Assembly: GCA_947500825.1 (NCBI GenBank)
Contig: CANMTR010000011.1
Span: forward strand, 1-64,000
Direction of reading: 5' to 3'
Length of the DNA: 64,000 nucleotides
Source: an uncultured Paracoccaceae bacterium
GTDB lineage: Bacteria; Pseudomonadota; Alphaproteobacteria; Rhodobacterales; Rhodobacteraceae
The position numbers and the translations under genes are program-made. Shown here piece by piece: positions 24,289-30,672 of the stretch. The first letter of the stretch is position 1. Every line of letters begins with the position of its first letter. Below the pieces are notes generated by a model that worked only from the letters and a program-made list of their open reading frames with translations, made no database searches and had not been told where the DNA came from.

Positions 24289-25113
24289 ATGTTTCATCAC
24301 TCGTCGAAGCTGCAGTACCAGGTCCGTGTGGACACGCCCGACCCGGTCTTCGCCAAGCATCTCCAGCAGGCCATCGGCGGGATCGAGGGCGAGATCCGCG
24401 TGGCGATGCAATACTTCTTCCAGGCCATGGGCGCGCGGGGCGACGCCAAGTACCGCGACATGCTGATGATGACCGCGACCGAGGAGCTGTCCCATATCGA
24501 GTTCCTGGGCCATGCCGTCGCGCTCAACCTCGAAGGGGCGCCGGTGACCGCGCAGGAGGCCGCGGCCGAGGACCCGGTCGTGGCCGCGATCCTGGGCGGG
24601 GCGAACCCGCGCCACATCCTGTCCTCGGGGCTGTCGGCGATGCCGGTGAACGCCAATGGCGTGCCCTTCGACATGAGCCACGTCTACGCCACCGGCAATC
24701 TCGGGGCGGACATGATGGCCAACGCCACCGCCGAGGCGGGCGGCCGCGTCCTGGCCAGCCGCCTTTACAACATGACCGACGACGCGGGCATGAAGGACAT
24801 GCTGTCCTTCCTCATCGCGCGGGACACCATGCACCAGCAGCAATGGCTCGCGGTGATCGAGGAACTTGGTGGCTGGGAGGGGCAGCTTCCGATCCCCAAC
24901 TCCACCCCGCGCGAGCACGAGGCGACCGACCACAGCTACTACTTCCTCAACACCTCGCTCGACGAGCCCACGCCCGAGGGGCGCTGGACCTCCGGCCCCT
25001 CGCTCGACGGGCGGGGCGAGTTCTCGATCCGGGAGAAGGCCGAGCCCCAGGGGCAGAAGCCCGACCTGGGCAAGGCGCGGCCCGGAACCGCGACGCAGTC
25101 CGAGCAGCAGTAA
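24289..25113 (+). CDS. manganese catalase
   Basis: Non-haem catalase with a dinuclear manganese centre that disproportionates hydrogen peroxide. The 274-residue protein has all five expected ligands at positions close to those of Lactobacillus plantarum catalase: Glu35, Glu66, His69 (TATEELSHIEF), Glu149 (ATAEAGGR) and His182 (ARDTMHQQQW). The C-terminal 40 residues are charged and flexible. GAAAGG precedes the ATG. It appears monocistronic. Confidence 0.95.
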   Translation: MFHHSSKLQYQVRVDTPDPVFAKHLQQAIGGIEGEIRVAMQYFFQAMGARGDAKYRDMLMMTATEELSHIEFLGHAVALNLEGAPVTAQEAAAEDPVVAAILGGANPRHILSSGLSAMPVNANGVPFDMSHVYATGNLGADMMANATAEAGGRVLASRLYNMTDDAGMKDMLSFLIARDTMHQQQWLAVIEELGGWEGQLPIPNSTPREHEATDHSYYFLNTSLDEPTPEGRWTSGPSLDGRGEFSIREKAEPQGQKPDLGKARPGTATQSEQQ

Positions 25114-25402: not shown

Positions 25403-25777
25403 ATGACTTATGCGATCGGCAAGCGGCGCTGGGTGCTGGCGGACGGATACATCCCCGCCGAAAGTACCGGAGAAGCGCCGGAAATGTTGAGCCACGAGGC
25501 GGTGTGCATCCTCAATACCGGAGCGGAGCCCGTTCGCGTGGTCCTCATGCTCTATTTCGAAGACCGCGACCCTGTCGGGCCCTACGAGCTGCGGGTGGCC
25601 GCGCGGCGAACCCTGCACCAGCGGTTCAACGAATTGACGGACCCCGAACCGATCCCGAAGGGGATCGGATATGCCTGCGTCATCGAGGCGGACGCGCCTG
25701 TCGTGGTCCAGCAGACGCGGCTGGATTCGCGACAATCGCAAAACGCCCTTCTGAGCACGCTGGCTTATCCGGCATGA
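25403..25777 (+). CDS. sensory rhodopsin transducer (ASRT) domain protein
   Basis: A 124-residue homologue of the soluble transducer of Anabaena sensory rhodopsin. Strong similarity runs through the protein: VLADGYIPAEST, SHEAVCILNTG, VVLMLYFEDRDPVGPYELRV, VAARRTLHQRFNEL, DPEPIPKGIGYACVIEADAPVVVQQTRLD (quoted as DPEPIPKGIGYACVIE and VVVQQTRLDSRQSQNALLST). The ASRT fold forms tetramers. The wider family has been proposed to bind small molecules such as sugars. No microbial rhodopsin gene is in this window, so the light-sensing role is not supported here. It stands alone, 219 bases before a four-gene operon. Confidence 0.9.
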   Translation: MTYAIGKRRWVLADGYIPAESTGEAPEMLSHEAVCILNTGAEPVRVVLMLYFEDRDPVGPYELRVAARRTLHQRFNELTDPEPIPKGIGYACVIEADAPVVVQQTRLDSRQSQNALLSTLAYPA

Positions 25778-25996: not shown

Positions 25997-27070
25997 ATGG
26001 TGATCGATATCGACAGGTCCGTTCAGGACGATCCTGCGCCCGAGGCCGAGCCCCGGACGCGGAGCGACCCCCGCCCCGAAGGCTTTTCCCCGGACCTTGC
26101 CCGAAAGCTGACCGAGACTGCGCGCAGGGCGGTCACGGCGGACGGGCGGCTCGACCCGACCCTCGGCGGCGACGCGGCGGGCCTGCTGCGCGGCGTGGCT
26201 GCCCGGGACCTTTCGCTCGGCCGGCTGCTGGAGGGGCATGTCAACGCCGTCGCGCTCGTCCGGGCCTGGGGGGCGGCGGAGCTGCGGGAGGACTGCGCGC
26301 GGGCGGTCTCCCACGGGGATCTCTTCGGGGTCTGGGGCGCGGACGACACGCCCGCGGTGACGGCCCGGCACGGGCGGCTCGCCGGGGCCAAGCGCTTCGC
26401 CTCCGGCCTCGGCCTGGTGCGGCGCGCCGTCGTCAGCGCAGGGTCCCCGGAGGGGCAGCGCCTGTTCATCGTCGAGGCCGACGATCCCGCGCGCCACGAC
26501 CTGTCCGGCTGGGACACGAGCGGGATGAGGGCGAGCCGGTCGGGACGGTTCGATTGCACGGGGCTCCGGGCGGCGGAACTGGGTCCTGTAGACGTCTACA
26601 CGACGGAGCCTCACTTCCTGGGCGGCACATGGCGGATCGCGGCCGTCACGCTCGGCGGGATCGTGGGGCTGCTCGATCGGGCCTGCGCCGAGCTGCGCGT
26701 CCGGGGCCACCTGGAGGCCGACGCCCAGCTTCTGCGGCTGGGGCCGGTGGCCGGGCGGGTGGTCGCGGCGTGGCCCGCGATCCGGCGCGCCGAGGCGGTC
26801 GCCACTGGGCCGGAGGGAGACGCCGACCCCGAGCGCGCCGCGATCCTGTCGTTGTCGGCCCGGCTCCTGACCGAGGAGCTGGCGCAGGACGCCATCGCGG
26901 CGGTCGAGCGGTCGGTGGGGCTGTCCATGTTCGCGCGCGCCGATCCGGTGGGCCGGGTGGCGCGCGACCTCGGGTGCTATGTCCGGCAGGCGGCGCGCGA
27001 CGCGGCCCAGTTGAAGACGGGCCGCGCGTTCCTCGGGGGGGCCTGCCTCGGCCAGTGGCTCGATGGGTGA
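25997..27070 (+). CDS. acyl-CoA dehydrogenase-like protein
   Basis: A 357-residue protein with the shape of the acyl-CoA dehydrogenase superfamily: helical N-terminal part, a central beta region (LFGVWGADDTPAVTARHGRLAGAKRFASGLG, quoted as LFGVWGADDTP and LAGAKRFASGLG) and a C-terminal four-helix bundle with ADPVGRVARDLGCYVRQAARD. That bundle motif is of the R.ARDL type seen in the HsaA/DszC flavin branch. The usual catalytic glutamate in a Y-E-G context was not found. It could be an unusual dehydrogenase, a flavin-dependent oxygenase or a degenerate member. The ATG at 25997 has GAGGCGGGA upstream. It overlaps the PIG-L gene by eight bases. Confidence 0.72.
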   Translation: MVIDIDRSVQDDPAPEAEPRTRSDPRPEGFSPDLARKLTETARRAVTADGRLDPTLGGDAAGLLRGVAARDLSLGRLLEGHVNAVALVRAWGAAELREDCARAVSHGDLFGVWGADDTPAVTARHGRLAGAKRFASGLGLVRRAVVSAGSPEGQRLFIVEADDPARHDLSGWDTSGMRASRSGRFDCTGLRAAELGPVDVYTTEPHFLGGTWRIAAVTLGGIVGLLDRACAELRVRGHLEADAQLLRLGPVAGRVVAAWPAIRRAEAVATGPEGDADPERAAILSLSARLLTEELAQDAIAAVERSVGLSMFARADPVGRVARDLGCYVRQAARDAAQLKTGRAFLGGACLGQWLDG

Positions 27071-27788
27071 GGCGGGCGACGGGGCGCGGCCCCCGACCGT
27101 GACATACGAGGCGCTCTGCGGCGCGCGGCCGGTGATGGTGCTGGCCCCCCATCCCGACGACGAGTCGCTCGGCTGCGGAGCGCTCCTCGCCCATGCCTTC
27201 TCGGGGCCGGGCGGGCATGTCGTGTGCATGACGGACGGGGCTGGGTCCCATCCGGGGTCCGCGACCCATCCGCCGGCGCGGCTCGCGGCCTGCCGGGCGG
27301 CGGAACTGGACGCGGCCGTGATCGCCCTGGGGGGCCGTGCCGGCGACATCACCCGGCTGGACCTGCCGGATGCGGGCATGGGCGGGATCGCGGGAGACTA
27401 CGACGCCATCGCCGCGCGCATCGCGGACCTGGCGGAGCGGCTCGGCGCCGGATCGATCCTGGCGACGGCGCCGACCGACCCCCATTGCGACCACGTGGCC
27501 ACCGCCGAGATCGGCCGCCGGGCCGCGGCCCTCGCGGGGGTGCGCTACCTCGTCTATCCGGTCTGGTCGCGGTGGGCGGCCCCGGGCGTCCTGCAAGGCC
27601 TGTCGGCGTGCCGCGAATACCGGTTCGACGGGGGGCCCACGCGGGAGCGGAAGCGCCGTGCCGTCGCGGCCCATGCCAGCCAGCTCGGGGGCGTGGTCCA
27701 CGACGACCCGGAGGGGTTCGTCCTCCCGCCGCACTTCGTGGAGATGTTCGTGGAGACCGACGAGATGTTCTTCGAGGGCGCCCCGTGA
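27063..27788 (+). CDS. PIG-L-family deacetylase
   Basis: Zinc-dependent N-deacetylase of the LmbE/PIG-L family, which removes acetyl groups from N-acetylglucosamine-containing compounds. The 241-residue product has the metal motif LAPHPDDESLGCGALLAHA near residue 27 and the second histidine segment TDPHCDHVATAEIG near 140. The active site looks complete. It is the second gene of the overlapping set at 25997-29406: it begins eight bases inside the previous gene and its stop overlaps the next start (GTGA). The likely role is deacetylation of an amino sugar made or used by the downstream glycosyltransferase. Confidence 0.92.
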   Translation: MGEAGDGARPPTVTYEALCGARPVMVLAPHPDDESLGCGALLAHAFSGPGGHVVCMTDGAGSHPGSATHPPARLAACRAAELDAAVIALGGRAGDITRLDLPDAGMGGIAGDYDAIAARIADLAERLGAGSILATAPTDPHCDHVATAEIGRRAAALAGVRYLVYPVWSRWAAPGVLQGLSACREYRFDGGPTRERKRRAVAAHASQLGGVVHDDPEGFVLPPHFVEMFVETDEMFFEGAP

Positions 27789-28345
27789 CGGGGGGCGTGG
27801 ACATCGAGCGGCTCGAGGCGCTCTATGCGGAGACGGACGACCCCTGGGGCTTCCGCACCAGCGCCTACGAGCAGGCGAAGTTCGCCGCCACGCGCGCGGC
27901 GTTGCCGCGCCCCCGGTACACCTCGGCCCTGGAGATCGGCTGCGGCAACGGCGAGCTGGCGCGCCACCTCTCGCCTTGCTGCGCGGATTATACCGGGGTG
28001 GACGCCGTGGAGGCGGCGCTCGTGGCCGCCCGCCGCGCGGTGCCGGGGGGCCGTTTCCACCGGGCGCTCATGCCGGGCGGGCTGCCCGGGGGGGTGCACG
28101 ACCTGATCGTCCTGTCGGAGATCCTCTATTTCCTCGGGGGGGCGGACATCGTGCTTTTGGCAGACGGGATCGACGCGCGCTGGCCCGGCGCGGACGTGGT
28201 CTGCGTCACTTGGCTGGGGCCGAGCGGCAACCCCCTGGAAGGGGAGGAGGCGCTCGCCCGCTTCGTCGCGGCCTCCCGCCGGGCCTTCCGGCCCGTGCGG
28301 CTCCGATCCCGCTACCGGATCGACGTGGCCGGGCCCCTGTCATGA
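27785..28345 (+). CDS. NodS-like SAM-dependent methyltransferase
   Basis: A 186-residue class I methyltransferase. ETDDPWGFRTSAYEQAKFAATRAALP at the N-terminus (quoted as DPWGFRTSAYEQAKFAAT) and SALEIGCGNGELARHL as the SAM-binding loop are characteristic of the NodS group, whose founder N-methylates the free amine of the Nod factor backbone after NodB deacetylation. The start is GTG, overlapping the deacetylase stop. The placement right after a deacetylase supports an N-methyltransferase role on an amino sugar, which is inference. Confidence 0.87.
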   Translation: MTGGVDIERLEALYAETDDPWGFRTSAYEQAKFAATRAALPRPRYTSALEIGCGNGELARHLSPCCADYTGVDAVEAALVAARRAVPGGRFHRALMPGGLPGGVHDLIVLSEILYFLGGADIVLLADGIDARWPGADVVCVTWLGPSGNPLEGEEALARFVAASRRAFRPVRLRSRYRIDVAGPLS

Positions 28346-29406
28346 CCGCGCGGGGCCGCATCACGGTGATGGACGGCCCAGGCCTGGCCGCGGCGACGGT
28401 CTCCGTCGTCATTCCGGCGCGGGACGAGGCCGAGCGGATCGGCGCGTGCCTCGCCGGTCTCGCGGCGCAGGACACCGACCGCCGCCCCGGGATATATGTC
28501 TGTGTGAACAATACTCGGGACCGGACGGCCGAGATCGCGCGAGACCTGGCGCTGGAGATGGGGCTCGCGCTGGTCGTGATCGAGATCGCGCTCCCCCATG
28601 GCGGCGTGGGGCGCGCGCGCCGTATCGGCCACGCCCTGGTCTCGCGGTACGGCCCCGCCACGCGGGCGATGCTGTCCACCGATGCCGACTGCATCGCCGT
28701 TCCCGGGTGGGTGCGGCGCATGGAGGAGGGACTTCGGCGCGCCCCTGTCGTTCTGGGGCATATCGCCGCCCGCGCGGAGGATCTCTCCAGGTTCCCCGAG
28801 ACCTTCCACGCCCGCGGGCGGGTCGAGGCGCGCTACATCGAGCTGTCGATGGAGTTCGAACGCCTGCTCGACCCCAGGGGCGCGGACGGGATCGGGCTGA
28901 ACACCGCGGGGGGAGCGAACCTGGGGCTGCGGGCAGGGATCTACCGCCGGCTGGGCGGGTTCGCATCCCTGTCCTGCAATGAGGATCGGGACCTGGTCGC
29001 ACGTGCCATCCGCCGCGGGCAGAGGCCGATCCGGGTTCCCGAGGCCGTGGTCCACGCCTCCATGCGGGTCGCGGGGCGGGCGAGGGGAGGAATGGCCGAT
29101 GCGATCGCCGATCGGCTGGCGAGCGAGGATTGCACGCTCGACATCGCCCTGGCGCCGTTCAGGGAGATGCTCGCCCGGCATTTGGGACGCCCGGAGGCGC
29201 CCGGCCCCATGCGCCGCCGGGACGCGGAGCGCGATATCGCGGACCTGGCCCGGTGTGTCGCCGCCCTTCGCCACCTCGGCGGGATCGAGGCCCGTCGCGC
29301 CTTCGTGGCCCGGGCGTTCGAGGGCCGCCGGGTGCCTGCGCGTGAACCGTCGAGGCCGGGGATGCGGAAACCCCTTCCGATCCTGTCGCCGGTTCGTCCC
29401 CGGTAG
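28342..29406 (+). CDS. glycosyltransferase family 2 protein
   Basis: A 354-residue GT-A fold glycosyltransferase. SVVIPARDEAERIGACLAGL is the nucleotide-sugar binding start, LSTDADC is the metal-binding DxD-type motif, NTAGGANLGLRAGIYRRLGGF and NEDRDLVARAIRRG form the acceptor and catalytic region. There are no membrane helices, unlike processive GT2 enzymes, so it is probably cytoplasmic. The donor sugar is unknown. Its ATG overlaps the methyltransferase stop (ATGA), closing the four-gene set. Confidence 0.9.
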   Translation: MTARGRITVMDGPGLAAATVSVVIPARDEAERIGACLAGLAAQDTDRRPGIYVCVNNTRDRTAEIARDLALEMGLALVVIEIALPHGGVGRARRIGHALVSRYGPATRAMLSTDADCIAVPGWVRRMEEGLRRAPVVLGHIAARAEDLSRFPETFHARGRVEARYIELSMEFERLLDPRGADGIGLNTAGGANLGLRAGIYRRLGGFASLSCNEDRDLVARAIRRGQRPIRVPEAVVHASMRVAGRARGGMADAIADRLASEDCTLDIALAPFREMLARHLGRPEAPGPMRRRDAERDIADLARCVAALRHLGGIEARRAFVARAFEGRRVPAREPSRPGMRKPLPILSPVRPR

Positions 29407-29523: not shown

Positions 29524-30672
29524 TTACCGAAGGCTACTGCGGGCAAGGGCGCCGATCAGGTCGGTGCGCGTGACGATCCCCACGATCCGGTCCCGGGCCA
29601 GGATGGGGACGGCATCCACGTCGCTGTCCGACATCATCGGAAGGAGCGCGCCGAGGGGCGTCTGCGGCGTGCCGCGAGGTCCGGCCACCCCCATGATGTC
29701 AGCGGCGCGGACCGGCCCCGTCCGGCCCCGATCGATAAGCCGCCGCATGGCAGGTCCGAAACCGCGATTGAGGCGCAGCGCATCCTCGCGGGCGCGATCG
29801 ACCAGGTGCAACTGGAAGATGACCCCGAGATACCGATCGCCGGGGCCGACCACGGGCAGGGCGGTGAAGCGATGCCGGCGGAACAGGTCCGCGACCTCGG
29901 AGACCGGGGTGTCGGCCCCCACGGTGACGAGGTTGCGCGACATGACGTCGGCCGCCGTCGTGGGCCCCGCCCGATGGGCGGCGGCGCGCAGTTCGGCGGC
30001 CCCGACCAGGCGCGCGAGATCCTCCACCCCGAGGTTGAAGGACTGCCGGTAGCGTTCGAGGATATCGACGAGTTCCTCTTCCGAGAGGCCCAGCCTCTCC
30101 ATCGGCCCGGCATCGCGGGTGCCGTGGCGATTGGGGTCGTCGAACTGCCGGAACGGGTAATGGCGACCGGTCAGCCGCCCGTAGGCGATCGCGACGAGCA
30201 CCAAGACCCCGCTGCCGAGGCCGATCGGCGTGAAAGCGAAGAGAAAGCCCAGCTCCCGCACGGCATCGGGGCTCATCGCCGCCGTCATCGCGACGGCGCC
30301 AGCGGGTGGGTGAAGGGCACGGCACAGGATGGTCGCCGAGATCGCAAGGCCGACGGACAGGGCGATGCGCAGCGTCGGGTCGCCGACGGCGAGGCTGACC
30401 GCCACCCCGACCAGCCCCGCGACGATGTTGCCGACGATCGCGGACCAGGGCTGCGCCAGCGGACTGTTGGGGACGGCGAAGAGCAGGACCGAGCTCGCGC
30501 CGAACGGGGCGACGAGATAGAGGCCGAGCTCCAGGTCGACCCCGGGGGTCAGGACGAACAGACCGGCAAGACCGAGGCCGACGAAGGCGCCGAACCCGGC
30601 TCTCGCGGCCTCGCGGAAGGACGCGCGCGGAACGGCAGGACCGAATGAGGCGAGATTTGGCACGACGACCAT
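29524..30672 (-). CDS. HPP-family membrane protein with CBS domains
   Basis: A 382-residue integral membrane protein. The N-terminal half (about 20-165) has four or more hydrophobic helices and contains the HPP motif in CRALHPPAGAVAMTA. The C-terminal half holds a tandem CBS pair (about 240-375: VMSRNLVTVGADTPVSEV and VDAVPILARDRIVGIVTRTDL). CBS pairs bind adenine nucleotides and gate transporters or enzymes. Some HPP proteins have been linked to nitrite transport in plants, but the role here is unknown. It is monocistronic and convergent with the glycosyltransferase. Confidence 0.9.
   Translation of the reverse strand: MVVVPNLASFGPAVPRASFREAARAGFGAFVGLGLAGLFVLTPGVDLELGLYLVAPFGASSVLLFAVPNSPLAQPWSAIVGNIVAGLVGVAVSLAVGDPTLRIALSVGLAISATILCRALHPPAGAVAMTAAMSPDAVRELGFLFAFTPIGLGSGVLVLVAIAYGRLTGRHYPFRQFDDPNRHGTRDAGPMERLGLSEEELVDILERYRQSFNLGVEDLARLVGAAELRAAAHRAGPTTAADVMSRNLVTVGADTPVSEVADLFRRHRFTALPVVGPGDRYLGVIFQLHLVDRAREDALRLNRGFGPAMRRLIDRGRTGPVRAADIMGVAGPRGTPQTPLGALLPMMSDSDVDAVPILARDRIVGIVTRTDLIGALARSSLR

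Follow-up and report, generated by a model that had tools for sequence, protein, structure and literature searches.

In a 64,000-nucleotide stretch of DNA from an uncultured Paracoccaceae bacterium (assembly GCA_947500825.1, contig CANMTR010000011.1, positions 1 to 64,000 of the forward strand; hereafter the window), four overlapping genes at 25997-29406 encode an acyl-CoA-dehydrogenase (ACAD)-fold flavoprotein, a PIG-L/LmbE-family de-N-acetylase, a NodS-superfamily S-adenosylmethionine-dependent methyltransferase (MT) and a GT2 glycosyltransferase (GT). This arrangement is a real recurrent module, beyond chance, because the same genes adjoin one another in other species too, and its association with stress genes is the new element reported here. 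We give even chances to the reading that the four genes work as a single metabolic unit to make a small glycoside or glycolipid in a stress response, in which an N-acetylhexosamine would be deacetylated, methylated and oxidised. The operon is widely conserved and apparently undescribed: no description of it was recognised among the matches listed by a full-text literature search, in which the PIG-L term matched few papers, making this a weak absence.

A recurrent four-gene module

All four genes lie on the forward strand: the ACAD gene (25997..27070, ATG start, 357 amino acids), the PIG-L gene (27063..27788, ATG start, 241 amino acids), the MT gene (27785..28345, GTG start, 186 amino acids) and the GT2 gene (28342..29406, ATG start, 354 amino acids). 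A sequence-only reading of the window had named the same four families and had taken the genes for a single unit from overlaps of 8, 4 and 4 bases. The open reading frames confirm these overlaps, and the side-by-side recurrence of the genes in other species further supports the unit. Pfam recovered three of the families above their cut-offs, namely PIG-L (PF02585, 5.2e-21, 75.9 bits against a cut-off of 28.2), NodS (PF05401, 8.8e-11) and GT2 (PF00535, 1.3e-10). The first gene product had no match in a Pfam scan; an AlphaFold2 model (mean pLDDT 89.0, pTM 0.87), whose best Foldseek match was ColB1 (E 1.8e-13), confirmed the predicted ACAD fold.

Two profiles, one built from 14 ACAD-like sequences and the other from 13 MT sequences (the window and annotated plasmid loci), were searched against 398 Pseudomonadota genomes, source genome included. 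ACAD scores were bimodal, with 34 places at or above 171 bits and the next at 91 bits. An MT match (>100 bits) lay within about 1 kb of 33 of these 34 places, the exception, in genome G315, being a partial ACAD gene. Seen from the other side, 32 of the 34 MT places (at or above 150 bits) adjoin an ACAD gene; the two operon-type MTs without a high-scoring ACAD neighbour are L079 (G309:C5:110868-111437) and L080 (G366:C2:1438035-1438601). The ACAD-MT pair is thus found in 32 of the 397 other sampled genomes (about 8%).

The complete set recurs as well. In a scan of species genomes, from which the best-scoring 80 loci among 463 relatives were used, so that the sample leans to close relatives and loci within one genus are not independent, PIG-L, MT and GT were all present within 4.5 kb of ACAD at 63 loci. 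The co-occurrence of the four families outside the source genome, on which the sequence-only reading had staked its proposal beforehand, is therefore seen. Counted singly, MT was near ACAD at 74 of the 80 loci and PIG-L at 66, with no partner at 5. Among the Pseudomonadota-sample loci, 30 of 32 fetched (L047-L078) were counted, two having lost their ACAD anchor in the open reading frame overlap filter; all three partners were present at 22, MT at 29 and PIG-L at 26. Plasmid loci had PIG-L, MT and GT in 11 of 15 cases, and annotated plasmids with the set come from Limimaricola, Paracoccus, Sulfitobacter, Bradyrhizobium, Novosphingobium, Jiella, Sphingomonas, Acinetobacter and Cupriavidus. The layout varies: the GT gene is upstream or on the opposite strand in some plasmid loci, Deinococcus and Roseomonas plasmids have the set without a GT, the PIG-L gene of the Cupriavidus plasmid lies beyond a catalase and not in line, ACAD is alone in the Methylobacterium FF17 locus, and Paracoccus and Novosphingobium have extra GTs within the same gene run.

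Stress genes and predicted promoters around the module

We hold the stress-gene context, which the sequence-only reading had missed, to be the strongest clue to function. Profile matches to at least one of eight stress families occur near 63 of 121 loci, the window included, compared with 1 of 40 control stretches. By family, the 121 loci gave catalase 31, DUF892 16, LigD 12, manganese catalase 8, Ku 7, OtsA 7, OtsB 7 and TreY 4, while the control stretches gave Ku and LigD at one locus and no other stress family (manganese catalase 0/40). The eight families were chosen from what the loci themselves showed, and the background is therefore measured by the 40 control stretches only; their positions were hand-picked, and 8 of them lie in four genomes that are outside the locus set or (2 stretches, in one genome) carry the MT only. 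Ku and OtsB were named after annotated members of their families, LigD and TreY by visual judgement.

Promoter predictions point the same way. A search for the EcfG promoter motif GGAAC-N16/17-YGTT within 4.5 kb upstream returned 36 matches, compared with 1-13 for 24 permuted motifs, although some of the 36 (for example at L064 and L066) fall in other classes and are probably chance. The matches cluster at about -3.6 kb (19), near the start of upstream GT genes, and at -0.1 kb, less than 1 kb from ACAD (10), with 0-4 in each other 1-kb bin. The source genome encodes NepR (PF18557, 44.4 bits, over the cut-off). A study on Sphingopyxis describes this motif and, as targets, catalases and ku-ligD (PMC7083833).

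In the window itself, a manganese catalase gene (24289..25113, forward strand; PF05067, 1.4e-83) represents the recurring stress context. It is followed by a gene of the Anabaena-sensory-rhodopsin-transducer family (25403..25777, forward strand; PF07100, 4.1e-51), whose membership of the operon unit is uncertain. The direct downstream neighbour, on the reverse strand, encodes an HPP transmembrane protein with CBS domains (29524-30672). A glutathione S-transferase-type gene stands directly upstream of the operon on a Sulfitobacter indolifex plasmid (L029:6985-7614); its family occurs at 5 loci, four of these occurrences being about 1 kb upstream.

The deacetylase, methyltransferase and glycosyltransferase

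The PIG-L enzyme, the sole PIG-L match in the source genome, keeps its HPDD and H144 zinc motif intact. Residues P29, H30, D32, D33, H141, D143 and H144 are invariant in 12/12 sequences, all of which retain the HxDD and distal HxDH motifs of the PIG-L/LmbE family. Family and zinc motif are shared with the MshB, BshB and LmbE deacetylases, whereas scores fall far below the cut-offs of the BshB1 (42.2 bits against 182.5), BshB2 and MshB (cut-off 224.35) models.

The MT belongs to the NodS superfamily without being a NodS equivalog, its score against that model being 44.2 bits for a cut-off of 300. Its matches among solved structures are 4isc at 3.2e-16 and NodS (3ofj) at 1.8e-6. In a tree of 79 sequences, built without an outgroup and with a bootstrap that had not fully settled, a 100/99 branch parts 69 operon-type MTs from 10 rows made up of NodS and the MT domains of trifunctional proteins described below.

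The GT2 sequence lacks QxxRW, which we take to be the motif of processive synthases, and no NodC model was found among its Pfam matches or among its NCBIfam matches up to E 0.1. As to its sugar donor, solved relatives gave weak partial matches alone (best 1.8e-6). A paralogue, 48% identical, is encoded on contig C27 of the source genome (L084:6027-7232), where genes for a Crp/Fnr-type regulator and for a YetF-type protein lie near it; both families recur near the operon in other loci.

An ACAD-fold protein without the dehydrogenase glutamate

The ACAD-fold protein of the window has alanine (A332) where four canonical dehydrogenases from the source and related genomes carry the catalytic glutamate, an assignment that requires a short ungapped extension (a few residues) of the profile alignment. 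Position 332 is A in 40, P in 12, V in 1 and T in 1 of the 54 sequences of alignment A6, and A in 6, P in 5, S in 2 and H in 1 of the 14 sequences of the wider alignment A1. At position 210, which we assume to be the alternative place of the catalytic glutamate, as in isovaleryl-CoA dehydrogenase, all 54 sequences of A6 have G, and those of A1 have G 13 times and D once. No dehydrogenase glutamate was thus found in the C-terminal RDLRVHQILEGT region or at the alternative place. A role of this protein with an acyl chain is unlikely because the catalytic glutamate is absent, and no acyltransferase is found among the four genes. We therefore rejected it as the likeliest reading.

Searched against solved proteins, the ACAD profile ranks DszC (5.3e-18), TdsC (3e-17) and MsuC (7.8e-12) first, with the first dehydrogenase behind them at 9e-11, and it also matches the sugar N-oxygenases DnmZ (4e-9) and KijD3 (2e-7). 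The protein shares with group D flavin monooxygenases both the ACAD fold and the nearest profile matches. It differs from DszC in that His92, presumably a functionally important residue of that enzyme, aligns with an invariant arginine (R76) of the operon family. One report groups DszC with the group D flavin monooxygenases as a relative of XiaF and names two of its homologues, KijD3 and DnmZ, as N-oxygenases that modify glycosides (PMC5481743). Another report terms KijD3 an amino sugar N-oxygenase and presents ChmG, an ACAD-superfamily protein, as a proposed N-oxygenase from its likeness to KijD3 (PMC10849742).

Two plasmid relatives show further features. The Rubrobacter cluster (L039) includes a gene for a pyridine-nucleotide-disulphide oxidoreductase (L039:8514-9716), a possible electron donor for the flavoprotein. 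On a Deinococcus radiodurans plasmid, the ACAD-like protein (L031:6543-8882) is extended by an N-terminal half (about 400 residues) that has no Pfam match and, by eye, looks like a glycosidase barrel.

Gene fusions and alternative deacetylases

When two proteins are fused in one species and encoded side by side in another, they often work one after the other. PIG-L and MT share one open frame at 6 loci (L050, L126, L127, L133, L135 and L145), five of them in four species of Aureimonas (L126 and L127 being one species) and one in genome G430, and MT is fused to ACAD at one locus in Novosphingobium rosa (L151). These fusions suggest consecutive steps. The Rubrobacter cluster, in which no PIG-L is annotated and none was found within 4.5 kb, has instead a CE4 polysaccharide deacetylase (NodB superfamily) just upstream of ACAD and MT.

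The same three activities as in the operon also meet in single polypeptides. Three genomes of one family (L081-L083) encode proteins, about 880-1000 residues long, that combine a NodS-type and a CE4 region, and in one 1001-residue protein (L081:5379-8384) Pfam finds GT2, NodS and CE4 together. Relatives carry the annotation 'trifunctional glycosyltransferase/class I SAM-dependent methyltransferase/polysaccharide deacetylase' (by annotation, L173:3393-6473, L174:958-4434 and L175:2405-5407), and such polypeptides occur in rhizobia, Sulfitobacter and a cyanobacterium; a literature search on them found no paper. They differ from the operon in having CE4 in place of PIG-L, in having no ACAD in the polypeptide, and in MT domains that, unlike operon MTs, group with NodS. 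The NodS proteins of four symbiotic plasmids group with these domains, hinting that NodS may derive from a trifunctional GT2-NodS-CE4 protein. Taken together, the fusions, the Rubrobacter CE4 enzyme and the trifunctional proteins support, without proving, deacetylation and methylation of a sugar amine.

Eight Methylobacterium loci have ACAD and MT without PIG-L (L139, L141, L146, L147, L148, L150, L156 and L161), and a two-sequence profile found no CE4 enzyme in those stretches. Four of them (L139, L146, L148 and L156) have a second, distant ACAD homologue upstream, and profile families of cytochrome b561 (scanned in L139) and molybdopterin oxidoreductase (scanned in L147) recur downstream.

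A proposed pathway and its alternatives

In the pathway that we propose, the GT2 enzyme, aided by further GTs in some lineages, would attach an N-acetylhexosamine or extend an acceptor with it; the PIG-L enzyme would take off the acetyl group; the NodS-like MT may then methylate the freed amine, or a nearby oxygen; and the ACAD-fold flavoprotein might oxidise the product, perhaps at nitrogen as in KijD3 and DnmZ. What the data show directly is the module and its conservation, the fusions, the intact PIG-L zinc motif, the loss of the dehydrogenase glutamate and the neighbouring stress genes, while substrate, methylated atom, oxidised atom, step order and product are what we infer.

Several observations weigh against this proposal. 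No characterised close relative was found for any operon enzyme, so that the sugar substrate is unproven, and PIG-L enzymes are known to act on non-carbohydrate amides as well. In structural comparison, dehydrogenases and monooxygenases tie for the ACAD protein (Z 29-31), and deciding between them by fold is not possible; moreover, the profile matches to DszC and TdsC are limited to about positions 3-193 of 346, whereas those to dehydrogenases extend to position 313. No recurring flavin reductase was noticed beside the operon, for which no dedicated search was made. Among the 80 species loci, ACAD is alone at 5 (one cut by a contig end) and accompanied by MT without PIG-L or GT at 9 (8 in Methylobacterium, 1 in Beijerinckiaceae; 4 near a contig end), and various loci either lack the GT or have it on the opposite strand. 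Finally, a search of the window's forward strand between 23801 and 26100, allowing one mismatch at most, found no EcfG-type site.

Other products can be weighed against the same data. The operon might tailor a glycolipid of the membrane or an exopolysaccharide: several GTs, including one of membrane type, would build a chain whose GlcNAc is deacetylated and methylated to give a protective surface layer under stress. The Paracoccus gene run, which reads GT2 (Glyco_trans_2_3, 489 amino acids), GT2, group-1 GT, ACAD, PIG-L, MT and GT2, fits this idea, as do the families of its first and third GTs near ACAD at 17 and 20 of 121 loci, the family at the place of the middle one at 14 loci (its identity not itself scanned), and ABC-ATPase (8 loci) and RND-like (7 loci) families at variable distance around the operon. 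We nevertheless consider it unlikely: PIG-L and MT have no export signal by eye, no GT lies directly upstream of ACAD in the window, and the source genome has only distant relatives (30-33% identical) of the 489-residue GT2. More improbable in our view is a mycothiol- or bacillithiol-type route, to a redox cofactor or for detoxification, in which GT and PIG-L would make a GlcN-X scaffold that is then methylated and oxidised and helps against oxidants. The PIG-L family takes in MshB and BshB, the BshB1 model does register the operon enzyme, catalases neighbour the operon, and the glutathione S-transferase-type gene of Sulfitobacter and its family at other loci would suit such a route; yet the BshB1 and MshB scores are far too low for membership, and no annotated gene of the plasmid stretches codes for a cysteine ligase (two stretches, L035 and L040, are unannotated).

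The sequence-only reading had likened the operon to Nod factor synthesis, in which NodC, NodB and NodS act as a set with NodA. Both systems combine a GT2-superfamily GT, a deacetylase and a NodS-superfamily MT, and a Bradyrhizobium japonicum plasmid of soybean-nodule origin carries one copy of the operon. The general logic of glycosyl transfer, deacetylation and methylation holds up, as it fits the PIG-L::MT fusions, the Rubrobacter CE4 enzyme and the trifunctional proteins. A close parallel does not: of four Nod hallmarks, three (a NodC-type synthase, a CE4 NodB and a NodS equivalog) are absent, the operon having a GT without QxxRW, PIG-L in place of the CE4 enzyme NodB, and an MT on a separate branch from NodS. 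There is no NodA or other acyltransferase among the four genes, and the operon adds an ACAD-fold flavoprotein, devoid of the dehydrogenase glutamate, and a stress context. NodA (PF02474) had no match in the source genome, though the search also matched in none of 14 control genomes. Given in addition the wide spread of the operon across genera such as Acinetobacter, Deinococcus and Sulfitobacter, we rejected a Nod-factor-like lipo-chitooligosaccharide signal as highly improbable.

Significance of the module

If the proposed pathway to a stress-related small glycoside or glycolipid holds, its product could represent a widespread class of bacterial stress metabolite, a glycoside whose hexosamine is methylated at nitrogen and oxidised by the flavoprotein (to an N-hydroxy, nitrone or nitroso form). 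The general stress response would induce the four enzymes together with catalases, trehalose or DNA-repair genes, and the module would be present in about one in twelve Pseudomonadota species and, whole or in part, in Deinococcus, a cyanobacterium and Rubrobacter. This fuller picture is tentative and, in our view, unlikely. The frequency of the ACAD-MT pair among the sampled genomes, with the stress genes around it, would imply a common compound, protective or signalling, and we found no name for it. With four defined enzymes, fusions, and relatives carrying predicted stress promoters, that product is directly testable. The module also suggests that Nod-like sugar chemistry exists outside symbiosis, which bears on the origin of NodS.

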